From positions 1-53,212 of the forward strand of contig QKCO01000068.1 in the NCBI GenBank assembly GCA_003245635.1: a stretch of DNA of 53,212 nt. The letters are read 5' to 3'. This DNA is from Treponema sp. (lineage in GTDB: Bacteria > Spirochaetota > Spirochaetia > Treponematales > Breznakiellaceae). Under the pieces are notes generated by a model that worked only from the letters and a program-made list of their open reading frames with translations, had not been told where the DNA came from and did not search any database. Positions 4,009 through 16,151 of this stretch are shown piece after piece; within the stretch, counting starts at the first letter, position 1, and every line of letters starts with the position of its first letter. The translations under genes and the position numbers were made by a program.

Positions 4009-6131
4009 GCGAAGCTTTCTTCCCCGAATGGAAGAACTTCCTCGGGGACGATGCGCGCACAGAGGCGCACTGCGCGATCCGGAACGTGGTGAAGCGGTCC
4101 GGAGAGCTCGAAACCTACGATCGGGCGAAGATCGAGGCGGCGATCGCAAAGGCGATGACCGCCATCGGCGTCCCCGACGCAAGCGCGGACGGCCGGGGCA
4201 AGGCAGCCAACCTCACCGACAAGGTGGAAGCGAAGATAGCGCACCTCATGTCCGGCCGGCACCGGAATTCGATTCCCGCCATCGAAGAGATCCAGGACCT
4301 GGTGGAGACGGTCCTTATCGAAGCGAACGAAGTCGCCGCAGCCAAGGCGTATATCCTCTACCGGGCCAAGCACGAAGCCATCCGCGACGCGAAGAAGCTG
4401 ATGCTCGACATAGACGCGACGATGGACGGATACCTGCGCCAATCGGACTGGCGGGTCAACGAGAACGCGAACGTCAACTTCTCGCTCGGCGGGCTCATCC
4501 TCCACAATTCGGGCTCTATCACCGCCAATTACTGGCTCAAGAACATCTACCCCGAGGAAGTCGCCGACGCGCACCGCAACGCGGACTTCCACCTGCACGA
4601 TCTTTCCATGTTCTCCGGCTACTGCGCCGGATGGTCGCTCAGGCAGCTGATCAAGGAAGGTCTCGGCGGCGTGCCGGACAAGATCACCTCCAAACCGGCC
4701 AAGCACCTCAACACGCTCATGCAGCAGGCCGTGAACTTCCTGGGCTGCCTGCAGAACGAATGGGCCGGAGCCCAGGCGTTCAGCTCGTTCGACACCTACA
4801 TCGCGCCCTTCGTGAAGGCGGACGCGATGAGCGACGCCGAGCTCAAGCAGTGCCTGCAGAGCTTCGTATTCGGCGTGAATACGCCCAGCCGATGGGGCAG
4901 CCAGGCGCCCTTCACCAACGTCACCTTCGACTGGGCCGTCCCTGAGGACCTCAAGAACCAGAAGGCGGTAGTCGGGGGCAAGGAGACGGACTTCACCTAC
5001 GGCGACTGCAAGAGCGAGATGGACCGCGTCAATCGCGCGTTCATAGAGCTCATGCTCGAAGGCGACGCCGAAGGCCGCGGCTTCCAGTACCCCATTCCGA
5101 CGTACAACATCACGCGGGACTTCGATTGGGACACGGACAACGCGCGGCTCCTGTTCGAGATGACCGCGAAGTACGGCACGCCCTATTTCCAGAATTTCGT
5201 CAACTCCGACCTCGACCCGGGAGACGTCCGCTCCATGTGCTGCCGGCTGCAGCTCGACAAGCGGGAACTGCGCAAACGCGGCGGAGGCCTCTTCGGTTCG
5301 GACGAATTGACCGGATCGGTCGGGGTGGTCACGATCAATCTGCCGCGCATCGGCTACCTCGCCAAAGACGAGAAGGACTTCTACAAGCGTCTGGCGCGCC
5401 TTATGGACCTGGCGAAGACGAGCCTTCAGATCAAGCGCAAGGTAGTCACCCGGCTGCTCAACAATGGACTGTTCCCTTACACCAGACGATACCTCAAAGG
5501 CTTGGACAACCACTTCAACACGATAGGTCTGGTCGGCATGAATGAATGCCTGCTCAATTTCCTGGGCCCGGACATCACGATCGTGACCGACAAGGGACGA
5601 GCCTTCGCGCTCGAGGTTCTCAACTTCATGCGCAAGCGCATGGCTGACTACCAGGAGGAAACGGGCGAGCTTTTCAACCTGGAGGCGACGCCCGCCGAAT
5701 CGACCTCGTACCGGCTGGCGAAGCACGACAAGAAGCGCTGGCCCGACATCATCGCGGCGGGGACCGACGAACCTTACTACACGAATTCGACGCAGCTTCC
5801 GGTCATGCACACCGCGGATATTTTCGATGCGCTCGACCTGCAGGAGGAACTGCAGGCCGCCTATACCGGGGGGACCGTCTTCCACGGCTTCCTGGGCGAG
5901 GCGATCGACGATTGGCGCGCGTGCCGCGATCTGGTCAAAGCCATCGCGCACAATTACCGGCTTCCCTACTTCACCATCTCGCCGACCTTCTCGGTCTGTC
6001 CGGTGCACGGCTACCTGAAGGGCGAACACTTCTCCTGCCCGGTCTGCAGGCAGGAGCGCGAGGCGGAGCTGAGAAAACGCATCGTCAAACTCGAATCGGA
6101 AAAGGAAGCCGCGCTGGCCGCGGCCGTATAA
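4005..6131 (+). CDS. nrdD: Anaerobic (class III) ribonucleotide reductase large chain, lacking the glycyl-radical segment
   Basis: Catalytic barrel of the oxygen-sensitive reductase that makes deoxyribonucleotides anaerobically. An ATP-cone lies at about residues 23-115 (VVKRSGELETYDRAKIEAAI), then the glycyl-radical-enzyme barrel with SMCCRLQLD (about 409-417), which carries the presumed thiyl cysteine, and GSVGVVTINLPRIGYL. The C-terminal zinc site is C665-x2-H668 and C678-x2-C681. The protein then ends in a charged helix-like tail instead of the usual glycyl-radical motif. That motif is in the next gene, in another frame, behind its own ribosome binding site. At 708 aa it is long for the family even without that segment. 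It overlaps nrdR by 4 bp. Confidence 0.95.
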   Translation: MSEAFFPEWKNFLGDDARTEAHCAIRNVVKRSGELETYDRAKIEAAIAKAMTAIGVPDASADGRGKAANLTDKVEAKIAHLMSGRHRNSIPAIEEIQDLVETVLIEANEVAAAKAYILYRAKHEAIRDAKKLMLDIDATMDGYLRQSDWRVNENANVNFSLGGLILHNSGSITANYWLKNIYPEEVADAHRNADFHLHDLSMFSGYCAGWSLRQLIKEGLGGVPDKITSKPAKHLNTLMQQAVNFLGCLQNEWAGAQAFSSFDTYIAPFVKADAMSDAELKQCLQSFVFGVNTPSRWGSQAPFTNVTFDWAVPEDLKNQKAVVGGKETDFTYGDCKSEMDRVNRAFIELMLEGDAEGRGFQYPIPTYNITRDFDWDTDNARLLFEMTAKYGTPYFQNFVNSDLDPGDVRSMCCRLQLDKRELRKRGGGLFGSDELTGSVGVVTINLPRIGYLAKDEKDFYKRLARLMDLAKTSLQIKRKVVTRLLNNGLFPYTRRYLKGLDNHFNTIGLVGMNECLLNFLGPDITIVTDKGRAFALEVLNFMRKRMADYQEETGELFNLEATPAESTSYRLAKHDKKRWPDIIAAGTDEPYYTNSTQLPVMHTADIFDALDLQEELQAAYTGGTVFHGFLGEAIDDWRACRDLVKAIAHNYRLPYFTISPTFSVCPVHGYLKGEHFSCPVCRQEREAELRKRIVKLESEKEAALAAAV

Positions 6132-11880: not shown

Positions 11881-11909
11881 TTGCTATTACCGGCCGGCGC
11901 GATTATACT
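11881..11909 (+). promoter_or_regulatory. Predicted promoter of the 11941-14527 operon
   Basis: TTGCTA (11881-11886), a 17-base spacer and TATACT (11904-11909) lie just after the carbamoyltransferase stop and about 30 bases before the next start. Confidence 0.55.
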
Positions 11910-11940
11910 TCATGGCGAAGTCCAGAAACGGAGGATTGCG

Positions 11941-12384
11941 TTGAAGACGATACGTTTCTTGTCGGCCGCGATGATTGCAGCGTTCAGCGTGTTGTCGGTT
12001 TTCGCCCAGGAGCCGGCGAAAGCCGAAGCCGTGGATATAAAGCCGGAGAACAGCTCGGCTTACTACTACGTGAACGTACCGATCGAAAAGATTTACCCGC
12101 ACCGCCTCGGTTTCGTCATCAGTTACCGAAAAGGCGGCTCTTCCCTCGGGCAGTCGTATCTTCCCATCAAGTGGTTCGAGAAATCGGCCGGAAAGGGGGA
12201 GCTTATCCGGCTCGCCGGCGGCACCCAGTGGCCGTACCTGAGCGTGTTCTACAAGGACGGCAAGGTCGACCACATCCGGCTCTTCGTGAGAGAGGAATTG
12301 TCGCACCCGTCATGGGGCAGCCTGCCTTCCACGGCGAAGATCGACGACCGCTTCGACGTAGAGGAACTCCATCTGGAGTATTGA
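11941..12384 (+). CDS. Small exported protein, unknown function
   Basis: 147 residues with a clear Sec signal peptide: KTIR, then a hydrophobic FLSAAMIAAFSVLSVFA core, with signal peptidase I cleavage likely after VFA and before QEP. The mature part is about 125 residues, rich in Tyr and basic residues (YYYVNVPIEKIYPHRLGFVISYRK). It probably forms a beta-rich periplasmic domain; I recognise no family. I use the TTG at 11941, since GGAGG lies 6 bases before it and the longer upstream extension is not protein-like. Its stop overlaps the next start (TGATG), so it is cotranslated with the M24 peptidase gene. Confidence 0.75.
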   Translation: MKTIRFLSAAMIAAFSVLSVFAQEPAKAEAVDIKPENSSAYYYVNVPIEKIYPHRLGFVISYRKGGSSLGQSYLPIKWFEKSAGKGELIRLAGGTQWPYLSVFYKDGKVDHIRLFVREELSHPSWGSLPSTAKIDDRFDVEELHLEY

Positions 12385-13568
12385 TGGACAACGCCCTTCT
12401 AGCCCGCCTTCGGGAAGCCATCCGCGGCGAAAGCCTCGACGGATGGCTTTTTTATAATTTCCGCCATCGAGACCGCCTCTCCGACGAAATACTCGGCATC
12501 GAGCAGGACAGGTCCAACACGAGACCCTGGATATACGCCGTCCCCGCTTCAGGCGACGCGCTCAAGATCGTCAACTCGATAGAGCGGGCCGCGCTCGACG
12601 GACTGCCCGGCGCTGCGGTCGAGTACGGCGAGCGGAGCGCTCTTTTCGCGGCGCTCGCAAAATTTTCAGGACAGCGCTGGGCGGCGCATATCTCCGAAGA
12701 GCTTCCCGTCATTTCGTTCCTGGACGAAGGCACCGCTGGACTCGTGAGGAGAGAAGGACTAGAGCTCGTACCGGCCGCGGCGCTCGTCCAACGCTTCAAA
12801 GGACTACTCGACGAAGGAGGAGCCGCTTCGCACGAACGCGCGGCGGGAGCGCTCCGGAGCATCGTCGAGGAATGCTGGAACTTCGTCGACCACTCGTACC
12901 GGACCGGAACGGCGGTCACCGAGGGCGAAGTACGGAACCTGATGCTCGCCGGAATGGAGAAGCGTGGACTCGTCACCGATCACCCGCCCATAGTAGGCGC
13001 AGGCGCGCATACGGCCGACCCGCATTACGATTTTTCCGGCGCCGGCGCGCCGTTCGCGCGGGGCGACGTGATCCAATTCGACCTCTGGGCCAAGGAGCGG
13101 GCCCCCGCGGCGATCTACGCGGATATCTCCTGGGTCGGCGTATTCGGCGAAAGCGCCGACGAAGGGACGGAAAGCGCATGGCGCGCTCTGCGGAGCGCGC
13201 GGGACGCGGCCGTCGGCTTCATCGGGGCCGAGCTTGCGGCGGGCAGGAGGCCGACCGGAGCATCCGTCGACCGCCGCGTCCGGGAAAGGCTGATCGCGGA
13301 CGGATACGGAGAAGCCCTGCGCCACCGCACCGGGCACGGCATCGACACCGAATGCCACGGCTCCGGCGCCAATCTCGACTCGGTGGAATTTCCCGACCAC
13401 AGACTCCTGCTCGACGGTTCCTGCTTCTCGGTCGAGCCGGGACTCTATTTCGACTTCTTCGGCCTCAGGACCGAAATCGACGTCTATATTTCAGGCGGCA
13501 AGCCGGTAGTTTCCGGCGGAAAAGCGCCGCAGATCGAACTGCTCTATTGCGGAAGGAGCTCCCATTGA
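12384..13568 (+). CDS. M24 family metallopeptidase (Xaa-Pro aminopeptidase-like)
   Basis: A cytoplasmic dinuclear-metal aminopeptidase that probably removes residues next to proline. The C-terminal pita-bread domain has all five metal ligands: two Asp in FDLWAKE...IYADISW (about residues 232 and 243), His in HRTGHGID (about 317), and two Glu in SVEPGLY (about 351) and RTEID (about 364). The first 170 residues form the creatinase-type N-terminal domain. The true start is the ATG at 12384, overlapping the preceding stop; sequence upstream in this frame is a shadow. The 394-aa length is usual. It overlaps the DHH gene by 4 bp, so the three genes form one translational unit. Confidence 0.9.
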   Translation: MDNALLARLREAIRGESLDGWLFYNFRHRDRLSDEILGIEQDRSNTRPWIYAVPASGDALKIVNSIERAALDGLPGAAVEYGERSALFAALAKFSGQRWAAHISEELPVISFLDEGTAGLVRREGLELVPAAALVQRFKGLLDEGGAASHERAAGALRSIVEECWNFVDHSYRTGTAVTEGEVRNLMLAGMEKRGLVTDHPPIVGAGAHTADPHYDFSGAGAPFARGDVIQFDLWAKERAPAAIYADISWVGVFGESADEGTESAWRALRSARDAAVGFIGAELAAGRRPTGASVDRRVRERLIADGYGEALRHRTGHGIDTECHGSGANLDSVEFPDHRLLLDGSCFSVEPGLYFDFFGLRTEIDVYISGGKPVVSGGKAPQIELLYCGRSSH

Positions 13569-14527
13569 TTCCCGTACCCCAAGAACTCATCGATTTCATA
13601 CGCGGCGGCGAACGATTCCTCGTCGCCGGACACAAAGAGCCCGACGGGGATTGCGTAGGCAGCCAGCTGGCGTTGGCGTCGGCGCTCAGGAGGCTCGGCA
13701 AGAGCGCCGTCCCCTGCTCCGCCGGTCCCTTCAAGCGGCCCGAAATCAAGGCGTACGAGCCGATCTTCACCGCTTCCCCGAGCGAGGAAGATCGGCGCAA
13801 CGCGCGCGCGATCATCATGGACTGCTCGAACGCGGCCCGGACAGGGGACCTCGAACCCTTTCTCGCGGGCGCGCCGGTTGCGGTCATCGACCACCACGCG
13901 TCCTCGGAACGTTTCGGAGATGTTTCCTTCGTCGACGACAAGGCGCCCTCGGTGACGTTCATGACGCTCGCGCTCATCGAGGCGCTCGGAATCGAACCCA
14001 CTAAGGAAGAGGCGGAGCTCCTGCTTTTCGGCCTCTGCACCGATACCGGCTTCTTCAGGCACGTCGATTCTCCTTCCTGGGAAACATTCGAGTACGCGGC
14101 GCGCATGATGCGCGCGGGAGCGAGTCCGAAGCGGACCTTCTTCGCGATGAACGGAGGCAAAAGCTTCGAGTCGCGCATCCTCATGGGCCTTATTCTTTCA
14201 CGCATCGAGTCCCATTTCGGCGGCAAGCTCGTGCTCTCCTACGAAAACCTGGAAGACACCGAACGCTTCGGGCTCCAAGGCAGGGATTCCGACGCCCTGT
14301 ACCAGCTGCTCCAATCGATCGGGGGCGTCGAGGCGGTCGTGCTGATCAGGCAGGAGACGCCGGACAACTGCACCGTCGGCTTCCGCTCGCGCGAAAGCGT
14401 GGACGTGTCCGCGATCGCTTCCCGCTTCGGCGGCGGCGGCCACAAGCAAGCCGCCGGCTTGAGCGCGAAGGGAACGATAGCCGGGTTGCGCGAAGGGATT
14501 CTCGCGGCGTTCGCCGAAGTTTTGTAA
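13565..14527 (+). CDS. nrnA: DHH/DHHA1 phosphoesterase (NrnA-like)
   Basis: Manganese phosphoesterase of the NrnA type, expected to degrade nanoRNA or linear dinucleotides and perhaps 3'-phosphoadenosine 5'-phosphate. All DHH motifs are visible: GHKEPDGDCVGS (about residue 22), IIMDCSN, VIDHHAS, and FGLCTDTG. The C-terminal DHHA1 domain ends with GGGGHKQAAG. The start is a TTG at 13565, overlapping the previous stop (TTGA), with GGAAGGAG six bases before it; the longer frame upstream is a shadow of the peptidase. It is 320 aa, normal for NrnA. It is the last gene of the operon, followed by a terminator at 14549. The substrate is inferred from the family only. Confidence 0.9.
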   Translation: MIPVPQELIDFIRGGERFLVAGHKEPDGDCVGSQLALASALRRLGKSAVPCSAGPFKRPEIKAYEPIFTASPSEEDRRNARAIIMDCSNAARTGDLEPFLAGAPVAVIDHHASSERFGDVSFVDDKAPSVTFMTLALIEALGIEPTKEEAELLLFGLCTDTGFFRHVDSPSWETFEYAARMMRAGASPKRTFFAMNGGKSFESRILMGLILSRIESHFGGKLVLSYENLEDTERFGLQGRDSDALYQLLQSIGGVEAVVLIRQETPDNCTVGFRSRESVDVSAIASRFGGGGHKQAAGLSAKGTIAGLREGILAAFAEVL

Positions 14528-14548
14528 CCGTTTGTAACATTCGCGCTC

Positions 14549-14580
14549 AAAGGGGAACTGCGATGCGGCACCCCTTTTCT
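14549..14580 (+). terminator. Intrinsic terminator after the DHH gene
   Basis: AAAGGGG (14549-14555) pairs with CCCCTTT (14571-14577), with a short inner CTGC/GCGG stem in the loop, followed by TTCTTT. It lies 22 bases after the stop codon. Confidence 0.7.
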
Positions 14581-14670
14581 TTGCGCGCATTTATCCTTTC
14601 GTTTCATAGATTTGCCCCAGCGGCCCGACCTCCGTCCCTGTAGTCCGGCAACAGCGGCACGCTTCTTGCT

Positions 14671-14699
14671 GATACCTCCGCATCGAAAAAGGAGGCATC
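14671..14699 (+). promoter_or_regulatory. Hairpin sequestering the ribosome binding site of the 14702 gene
   Basis: GATACCTCC (14671-14679) pairs with GGAGGCATC (14691-14699) through 8 of 9 positions around an 11-base, A-rich loop. The right arm contains the whole GGAGG that lies 6 bases before the ATG. The folded form should block initiation, so a temperature, ligand or protein switch is possible. The regulatory role is inferred. Confidence 0.5.
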
Positions 14700-14701
14700 T
14701 C

Positions 14702-15559
14702 ATGAACGACGACAAACCGCTTCATTATCTCTACGAACGCTTCCGCGCAGGGAAGCTCGGGAGGCATGACTTCGAAGCCGCGATCTTCCGTTTCGTGCGC
14801 GACAATCCGCGGCGGTTCAAGATTTCCGGATGGAGGGAGGACGACCGGGAAGAATTCATCGCCGAACTCTATCCGACCATCAGGAAGGCCATAGACGCGT
14901 ACCGAGACGTCGGCTCCTGTTTCGACGCCTACGCGTACACGGCGATCCGCTGGGAAGCCCGCGGATACCGGAGCCGCAAAGCGGAGAAAGCGACGATAGA
15001 GCGTGCCTACTGGATGACGGCGGCGGAGACGGCGAGCGACGAGGAGTCGTTCTACTCCTGCGGGAACGATGCATACGATCAAGACCCGCAATGCCCGCCG
15101 TCGAGGAAGAAGCGGCAGATCCTCGCCTTGACGCTCAAATGCTGCCTGAAAGTGTCCGACGATTTATGCCGAAGGATCGCGCCTTCGGTCGGGCTGCGGC
15201 CCGATGAGCTCGAATCGAAGCTGAACGGCTTGCGGACGCTGGTCGCCGAGCGGGCCGTTCGCCGGCAAGAGCTCGAGGAACTTGCCGCGGCCCACTACTG
15301 CAGAGGCATGATCATGGCGGCGAAGGCGATCGAAGCTCCCTCCTATTCGGACAAGAAGCGCCGTTTCGAGAAATCGGCGGCCGTCGCGAAGCAGCGCCAC
15401 GCGAATTGCCGGGACCGGGCTTCGAAGATATCGGTCGAGGCGACGAACAGGGAAGTAGCCGAAGCGCTCGGCGTGCCGAAGGGAACGATAGACGCGAGCA
15501 TATATTTCCTGAAGCAAAAGAGCGCCCCCCTGTACGATCCGCGCGGCCCGCGGGTATAG
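14702..15559 (+). CDS. Sigma-70-like protein of unknown role
   Basis: A 285-residue cytoplasmic protein. Residues about 45-110 resemble sigma factor region 2: EEFIAELYPTIRKAIDAYRD then CFDAYAYTAIRWEARGYRSRK, comparable to the core-binding helix and the FSTYA..WIR segment of sigma factors. Near the C-terminus TNREVAEALGVPKGTIDASIYFLKQK looks like a helix-turn-helix of the region 4 kind. The middle is Cys- and Arg-rich and matches nothing I know. It could be a divergent sigma factor, an anti-terminator or a sigma mimic. The ATG has GGAGG 6 bases upstream, but inside a hairpin. The gene stands between a terminator and the rdgB promoter, so it is probably monocistronic. Confidence 0.6.
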   Translation: MNDDKPLHYLYERFRAGKLGRHDFEAAIFRFVRDNPRRFKISGWREDDREEFIAELYPTIRKAIDAYRDVGSCFDAYAYTAIRWEARGYRSRKAEKATIERAYWMTAAETASDEESFYSCGNDAYDQDPQCPPSRKKRQILALTLKCCLKVSDDLCRRIAPSVGLRPDELESKLNGLRTLVAERAVRRQELEELAAAHYCRGMIMAAKAIEAPSYSDKKRRFEKSAAVAKQRHANCRDRASKISVEATNREVAEALGVPKGTIDASIYFLKQKSAPLYDPRGPRV

Positions 15560-15560
15560 T
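15555..15560 (+). promoter_or_regulatory. -10 box for a leaderless rdgB mRNA
   Basis: TATAGT ends 6 bases before the rdgB ATG and overlaps the stop codon of the upstream gene. No Shine-Dalgarno sequence is present between them. The -35 region is poor. Confidence 0.4.
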
Positions 15561-15566
15561 GGGCCC

Positions 15567-16151
15567 ATGACTATTTGGTTCGCTACGGGCAATGCCCACA
15601 AAAGGGCCGAACTGGCCGCCATCCTAGCGCCGCACGAAGTGAAGATGCCTTCCGACGCAGGCTTGGCCTTCGATCCGGAAGAGACCGGGGATACGTTCCT
15701 CGAGAATTCGCTGATCAAGGCGCGCGCGCTGTACGATCTGGTGAAGGCGCCGGTCGTCGCCGACGATTCCGGGCTCTGCGTCGACGCGCTCGGCGGCCGC
15801 CCGGGAGTGCTTTCCGCGCGGTACGGCTCGGAGAACGGAGCGAAGCTCAAGGACGGCGACCGGAACGCGCTGCTCCTGCGGGAACTCGGGTCCGCTCGGG
15901 ACCGGAGCGCGCGCTTCGTCTGCGCGATGGTGCTGCTCTTGTCGCACGACCGTTTCTTCGTCGCCCACGAGACTCTCGAAGGCGAGATCATACACGGGGA
16001 GCGCGGTTCGGGAGGTTTCGGCTACGATCCGATACTGTACCTCCCCGATCAGGGGAAGACGGTCGCGGAACTGACGGCGGACGAAAAGAACGCCTTGAGC
16101 CATCGGGGGAAGGCGGGAGCGCGGATAGCGTCGATACTCGCGTCCCTATGA
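15567..16151 (+). CDS. rdgB: XTP/dITP pyrophosphatase (HAM1 family)
   Basis: House-cleaning enzyme that hydrolyses non-canonical purine triphosphates (dITP, XTP) to monophosphates, keeping them out of DNA and RNA. The N-terminal FATGNAHKRAEL, the ETGDTFLENSLIKAR segment, the catalytic region VVADDSGLCVDALGGRPG, the GSGGFGYDPILYLP motif and the C-terminal ALSHRGKA are all intact. At 194 aa it has the standard length. There is no Shine-Dalgarno sequence before the ATG, but there is a -10 box 6 bases upstream. Its stop overlaps the start of the transporter gene by 4 bp (ATGA). Confidence 0.96.
   Translation: MTIWFATGNAHKRAELAAILAPHEVKMPSDAGLAFDPEETGDTFLENSLIKARALYDLVKAPVVADDSGLCVDALGGRPGVLSARYGSENGAKLKDGDRNALLLRELGSARDRSARFVCAMVLLLSHDRFFVAHETLEGEIIHGERGSGGFGYDPILYLPDQGKTVAELTADEKNALSHRGKAGARIASILASL

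Follow-up and report, generated by a model that had tools for sequence, protein, structure and literature searches.

The closest described counterparts of the gene studied here are the ECF (group 4) sigma factors, for which a neighbouring anti-sigma gene is usual, though not universal. A second point of comparison is the T4 late sigma factor gp55, which is not known to have a sigma-4 helix-turn-helix (HTH). In Leptospira interrogans, LIC_10225 is described in a 2025 review (PMC12655853) as a 301-aa ECF with a sigma region at 21–194 that is left unclassified; in two further sources, an insertion in lic10225 is listed (PMC5100919) and the gene takes up one table row (PMC6941012). In the RpoN–RpoS cascade of Borrelia, according to PMC3037356, a second sigma gene, rpoS, is expressed from a sigma-54 promoter, and a regulator binds a direct repeat located there. 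A search of literature titles and abstract openings gave no description of the family reported below.

The window analysed here is a stretch of 53,212 nucleotides from a Treponema sp. genome, and it contains a gene whose product had been read from the letters as a divergent sigma-factor-like protein. Like ECF (group 4) sigma factors, this protein has a sigma-2 domain, a linker, and a sigma-4-type HTH in the same order, and the NCBIfam profile of the sigma70-ECF superfamily (TIGR02937) matches it over most of its length. Unlike them, it carries about 100 extra residues (a helical hairpin and a second region 4.2 HTH) and lacks the Gln–Glu pair of region 2.2 with which canonical sigmas bind core polymerase, and which we take to correspond to Q406/E407 of E. 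coli sigma-70 and label as such; it also scores under the curated cut-off and has no anti-sigma neighbour in the window. The length and layout reported for LIC_10225 in PMC12655853 fit the family, and on layout alone it is probably a relative.

Profile matches and predicted architecture

The gene and the parts of its product are as follows.

14702–15559, + strand: gene for a divergent sigma-70-superfamily protein of 285 aa (NCBIfam match and homologues)
14702–15034, + strand: sigma-2 domain, residues 1–111, without the canonical Q406/E407 pair (AlphaFold, VIA-align)
15110–15283, + strand: HTH-1, sigma-4-type, three helices, residues 137–194 (hhalign 84.9, or 98.4 in the Leptospira-side family; AlphaFold)
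15200–15427, + strand: long antiparallel helical hairpin between the HTHs, residues 167–211 and 217–242 (AlphaFold, VIA-align)
15437–15535, + strand: HTH-2, region-4.2 type, residues 246–278 (hhalign 86.7; conservation)

The original prediction had placed the reading frame correctly, from the ATG at 14702 to the stop ending at 15559, and both segments that it quoted, as region 2-like and region 4-like, are found in the 285-aa protein. The mechanical ORF begins at TTG 14612 (315 aa). The start at ATG 14702 is backed by a Shine–Dalgarno sequence, AAGGAGG, at 14689 (beginning 13 nt before the ATG), and it agrees with the N-termini of homologues, the starts of which were chosen by script. Taken as a whole, what had been observed in the sequence was confirmed, and the interpretation was supported in part: the sigma-like nature stood and the novel Cys-rich middle did not.

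Searches of the window protein gave no match in Pfam and nothing besides TIGR02937 in NCBIfam (E = 3.2e-6), with a score of 26.9 bits versus the curated cut-off of 42.9. A close fit to a standard sigma family is absent, as had been claimed. In the window's own genome, which is 82% complete, seven proteins match TIGR02937 over the cut-off and the window protein ranks eighth, under it. The same model was matched at E <= 0.01 by 61 of the 75 order-level family sequences, so the sigma likeness exceeds chance, and Leptospira-side relatives pass the cut-off (102.7 bits in L169, 93.4 in G100, and 71.2 in G149).

Profile–profile comparisons were made with a canonical ECF profile of 15 ECFs from the same phylum (20 were fetched, and five that could not be found by the A5 profile were dropped), with A1, a 75-row order-level alignment, and with A5, the alignment of the Leptospira-side family. 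Against 30 Leptospira-side members, hhalign aligned the canonical ECF profile continuously from sigma-2 through HTH-1 (probability 98.4, E 6e-15) and separately matched region 4.2 to the C-terminal HTH (85.2, 6e-6). The same two matches were obtained against A1, at 84.9 for the one that includes HTH-1 and 86.7 for HTH-2, versus a probability of at most 0.5 in five column-shuffled controls; the segment called region 4-like is hence a sigma-4.2 HTH. The Leptospira-side and A1 profiles match each other co-linearly along a span of 276 columns that begins in sigma-2 and ends in HTH-2 (probability 98.7, E 4e-16), which entails that the order sigma-2, HTH-1, hairpin, HTH-2 is common to both classes. 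Homology of the family to sigma-70 factors is near certain. In HTH-2, the family motif reads N-x3-A-x5-PKGTVDS, and K260 and D264 are kept in 72 of 75 aligned sequences.

The AlphaFold model based on A1 (mean pLDDT 90.6, pTM 0.63) has helices over residues 7–111 (sigma-2), followed by a low-confidence linker and helices at 137–146, 153–162, 167–211, 217–242, 249–256, and 260–278, with the first helix of the hairpin also closing HTH-1. Another model covered residues 1–194 and was built on 71 rows; the pLDDT of the two models was 90.5–90.6. With the first model, VIA-align matched the sigma-2 part (approximately residues 1–100) to sigma factors of many groups, including gp55, SigI6, sigma-E, AlgU, and SigK; many coiled-coil rows appeared besides for the hairpin, and residues 184–246 resemble hairpins of unrelated proteins. 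With the second model, the top row was gp55 (7d7c_F; Z 8.5, rmsd 3.6, 110 aligned), tied with SigB (Z 8.2, rmsd 3.0, 83 aligned), and SigI6 also matched (Z 7.5, rmsd 3.7, 95 aligned). The two HTHs of the window protein set it apart from gp55. Judged from their titles, 37 of the 50 rows shown were sigma factors or chains of RNA polymerase complexes, and the other 13 were homeodomains matching residues 132–194. Foldseek gave no match at E <= 0.001 with either model. VIA-align Z values of 6–8.5 are modest and fall within the range for which the tool advises caution with helical proteins, so the sequence profiles carry the weight. Fold comparison, which had been proposed as a check, thus returned a sigma-2 fold and not one unrelated to sigma region 2, and the region 2-like segment sits in the long helix of this domain.

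The middle of the protein had been described as novel and Cys-rich. It is Cys-rich in the window protein, where residues 112–245 hold seven Cys, but this is not a family trait: seven of the eight Cys positions of the protein are Cys in only 1–5 of 75 aligned sequences, C147 is Cys in 27 of 75, and no CxxC motif was found. We therefore rejected a novel Cys-rich or metal-binding middle, the Cys being unconserved; the region is no novel domain, as it comprises the first sigma-4-type HTH and the helical hairpin. The TIGR02937 match and an alignment with SigW would also permit reading the extra residues as an insertion inside region 4. The continuous ECF alignment through HTH-1 disfavours this, and two HTHs appear the better reading, a choice that is not fully settled.

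Region 2.2 was compared in ungapped register. All 15 canonical ECFs have Q followed by E or D at Q406/E407, whereas the pair is absent from the family (0/75 in A1, 0/36 in A2, and 0/30 on the Leptospira side), being missing in 140 of 140 distinct aligned members with the window protein counted once. Taken singly, and in the same order of alignments, Q406 is kept in 2/75, 0/36, and 0/30 sequences and an acid at 407 in 4/75, 6/36, and 0/30; a Q[ED] pair lies a few residues off-site in 4/75, 2/36, and 0/30. The Glu position is often aromatic. The preceding acid, equivalent to D403, is retained in 72/75, 30/36, and 30/30. Since the pair is missing, core binding may be altered or lost, and it is mainly for this reason that we do not file the family as a proven sigma factor.

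Distribution and gene neighbourhood

Using the single window protein as query, matches at E <= 0.01 were found in 79 of 97 genomes, including 51 of 58 of its own family. The A1 profile matched 248 of 392 genomes sampled across the phylum at E <= 0.001, although, well outside the window's class, some of the weak hits could be ordinary sigma factors. Among the 20 listed of the 144 misses were 16 genomes of family f7 (0.9–1.8 Mb), which we take from their size to be Borrelia-like, together with G067 (1.1 Mb), G029, G288, and G432; no f7 genome is among the 248 matches. The A5 profile matched 47 of the 48 genomes of the Leptospira-side class at E <= 1e-5, the match in G228 being partial (6e-8) and possibly another sigma. 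In a scan of named contigs, A5 gave 33 loci, mainly in Leptospiraceae or other spirochaete bins; the same scan with the window protein alone as query gave no relative. Near-full-length matches to the A5 family also occurred in contigs labelled HR30 (25% identity) and Binatia (23%). The suggestion that the protein is peculiar to spirochaetes therefore holds in that the relatives found are mostly spirochaetal, but not as exclusivity. Short fragments aside, the aligned sequences and those from the search of relatives share 14–41% identity with the window protein. In L077 (G055:C120, 3665–5186), the gene has a partial second copy next to it, and genome G055 gave four matches in total; at 5908–8541 of L063 (G061), a frame stays open for 878 aa over and upstream of the gene, which may be a neighbour fusion or a chance open frame.

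In the window, the gene is flanked by two conserved neighbours.

13556–14527 (start approximate), + strand: NrnA-type DHH/DHHA1 phosphoesterase, kept upstream neighbour (Pfam, synteny)
15567–16151, + strand: RdgB/Ham1 non-canonical purine NTP pyrophosphatase, kept downstream neighbour (Pfam; TIGR00042 over cut-off)

The upstream gene matches the NCBIfam NrnA model with E = 2.3e-19, though under its cut-off, and rdgB begins 7 nt after the end of the sigma-like gene. The other neighbours tested were an M24 peptidase and a CitMHS-family transporter, so the claim that no anti-sigma gene is adjacent holds true for the window. Among 77 order-level loci, NrnA is nearby in 54 and RdgB in 29; all 28 loci outside family f1, to which the window's genome belongs, have RdgB, and of the f1 stretches examined that of the window's genome is the sole one to show it. 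Of another 40 loci in the class, 31 carry a same-strand RdgB gene no more than 1.2 kb downstream. Neither gene was present in the stretches, many of them short, of 18 loci outside the class. A 167-aa ORF at 11881–12384 of the window, with no Pfam match, lies near the gene in 35 of the 77 order-level loci. At locus L264 of G067, a stretch with no match to A1, the uncharacterized upstream gene and NrnA adjoin RdgB in the opposite direction.

The motif HxxxCxxC is the signature of zinc anti-sigma factors. In Leptospira-side and outer loci, where a same-strand ORF is often next, it occurs near the start of 15 of 45 such downstream ORFs (12 of 37 after removing duplicates), and only 13 of all 574 distinct ORFs of these loci contain it; four such downstream ORFs tested with Pfam and three tested with NCBIfam were not recognized. 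In the window's class, RdgB is the usual next gene, and no anti-sigma-like one was seen downstream. At some Leptospira-side loci (L170, 6646–8457, and relatives), two genes come next: one for a conserved protein of unknown nature, then one for a CHAT-domain protein (Pfam E = 4.2e-26 in L170).

The upstream region

Three elements precede the gene.

14523–14538, + strand: direct repeat TGTAAC-N4-TGTAAC, putative enhancer or operator, overlapping the nrnA stop codon
14549–14577, + strand: terminator-like hairpin (AAAGGGG...CCCCTTTT), from RNA folding, after nrnA and between repeat and promoter
14655–14670, + strand: −24/−12 sigma-54-type promoter-like site CGGCACGCTTCTTGCT, beginning 47 nt before the ATG

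The sigma-54 consensus is TGGCAC-N5-TTGC, with GG and GC ten bases apart. The site at 14655–14670 fits it at 11 of 12 positions and is the sole site reaching at least 11/12 in the 53-kb window; no sigma-70-type promoter was found before the gene within 14400–15700. Sites of at least 10/12 occur in 48 of 134 upstream regions versus approximately 0.5 expected from shuffles, distributed as 5/50 in f1, 0/1 in f2, 9/14 in f3, 10/13 in f4, 9/12 in f5, 4/6 in f13, and 11/21 in the other families of the class, with 0/17 outside it. For the class loci (48/117), this is about 80 times the expectation of 0.0051 per upstream window, a background derived from 59 sites elsewhere in the same loci (2.15 million nt, both strands). 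A looser control, in which overlaps with the same site were left in, gave 52 of 1064 upstream regions of other mechanical ORFs. Loss of rpoN was considered as the cause of the missing sites in f1 and was not supported: the gene is kept in 94 of 97 relative genomes searched, and that of the window's genome matches PF04552 with E = 3.6e-54. Judged by the upstream sequence, sigma-54 likely controls the gene both in the window and across much of the class.

In a 583-kb sample of the window's genome (window included), seven sites reach 11/12, and six of these precede an ORF starting 41–87 nt downstream of the site start, among them the sigma-like gene and an RpoS-like sigma; the exact 15-base pattern has six copies in the whole genome versus three for a reversed control. 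The RpoS-like gene (280 aa, named by eye; C141, site 4307, L324 and L337) has a 12/12 site 44 nt upstream, which recalls the Borrelia RpoN–RpoS cascade. Other sigma-54-like sites of this genome precede ORFs named by eye as AmtB-like (L329 14535, 10/12) and Hsp20-like (L339 3598, 12/12).

The direct repeat was found from k-mer counts upstream of sigma-54-type sites. Exact copies of it occur 15 times in about 2.0 Mb of sequence searched, where spacings of 0–11 gave one other pair, and all 15 copies lie upstream of the sigma-like gene, 14 in gene orientation and one inverted (L065); the repeats of L326 and L118 were placed by identity with those of the window and L133 because the script gave no distance. 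Exact repeats are present in 13 of 117 class loci (five in f1, five in f5, and three in other families), and in f1 they accompany all five sigma-54-positive loci and none of the other 45. Family f4 has no exact repeat, and in three of its loci both copies are altered alike, to TGTAAG, as they are to TGTAAA in L136, L140, L142, and L004. Matches of 10/12 occur in 0.55% of 300-nt background windows, and none of at least 10/12 was seen in f3 (14 loci), f13 (6), or outside the class (17). The 583-kb sample contains one exact repeat, at the sigma-like gene, and nothing else reaching 10/12.

TGTAAC resembles the −35 hexamer of ECF promoters. We rejected the repeat as a plain −35 element, since inspection by eye showed no consistent −10 and since a terminator-like hairpin stands between repeat and gene in the window and, as judged by eye, at a few other loci; in the window, the automatic terminator scan, with its short loop limit, did not detect this hairpin. 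The position of the repeat upstream of the −24/−12 site suits a putative enhancer. A sigma-54-type site plus a direct repeat before a sigma-like gene, known here from sequence, parallels the Borrelia RpoN–RpoS cascade as described in PMC3037356. The two differ in that RpoS belongs to a different sigma group and no f7 genome is among the family matches.

Possible modes of action

The reading that we favour, at somewhat better than an even chance, is that the family consists of ECF-derived, second-tier sigma factors under RpoN. Profiles and model show a sigma-70-superfamily regulator in which a sigma-2 domain is followed by two region-4.2-type HTHs, with a helical hairpin between them. Its gene would be transcribed from the sigma-54 promoter, to which promoter and repeat statistics point, so that the protein level would be set by RpoN and an activator, the latter presumably acting through the upstream TGTAAC repeat. 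The protein would then guide RNA polymerase to a group of promoters, where the additional HTH would touch the DNA a second time, near −35 or upstream of it. The anti-sigma partner apparently present in deeper relatives would have been lost, leaving control by synthesis and not by sequestration. That a sigma-54-type promoter often precedes the relatives' genes suggests that one sigma factor activates another. A bolder reading, to which the ECF −35 likeness of the repeat and the doubled HTH lend themselves, is autoregulation: the two region-4.2 HTHs, spaced by roughly one turn of DNA, would read a doubled −35-like element, and the gene's own repeat, with its 10-bp period, would be an autoregulatory site feeding the sigma-54 promoter. 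We consider this doubtful.

The family-wide loss of the Q406/E407 pair, the many best-conserved positions in HTH-2, and RdgB where a downstream anti-sigma-like gene might stand in the window's class would all suit a sigma-derived transcription factor that is no longer a sigma, its grip on the beta-prime clamp lost and its two HTHs binding DNA as a one-chain regulator. This is possible but rather unlikely, as both the sigma-2 fold and the acid equivalent to D403 persist, and as relatives on the Leptospira side, which lack the pair too, still reach the score of sigma factors, some of them adjoining a gene with the anti-sigma motif. Another alternative is an ordinary ECF sigma factor that has merely gained a C-terminal extension; the canonical profile does align across sigma-2 and HTH-1, and LIC_10225, of similar size and layout, is listed as an unclassified ECF in PMC12655853. 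Yet the extension forms a hairpin and then a second HTH of the sigma-4.2 type, which two classes share, the core-binding pair is replaced, and much of the window's class has a sigma-54 site and no adjacent anti-sigma gene, which makes so plain a reading improbable. That the gene is a decaying remnant retained through its position between nrnA and rdgB would accord with its fast divergence and with the misses listed for G067 and f7 genomes, but it is very hard to reconcile with open frames and a conserved motif throughout the phylum, with 48 class loci having a promoter-like site of their own, and with retention of the gene in most of f1, where RdgB is absent from the stretches examined; we give it almost no credence. 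Action as a true sigma factor thus appears the most likely of the readings weighed.

The family raises the question of whether a sigma-2 domain without the Gln–Glu pair can hold the polymerase, and of what the second region 4.2 HTH reads. If the second-tier sigma reading is true, many spirochaetes would carry a sigma-like regulator wired under RpoN, one that in the window's branch scores under the cut-off used for sigma annotation, and the RpoN–RpoS cascade of Borrelia would exemplify a pattern more widespread among spirochaetes.
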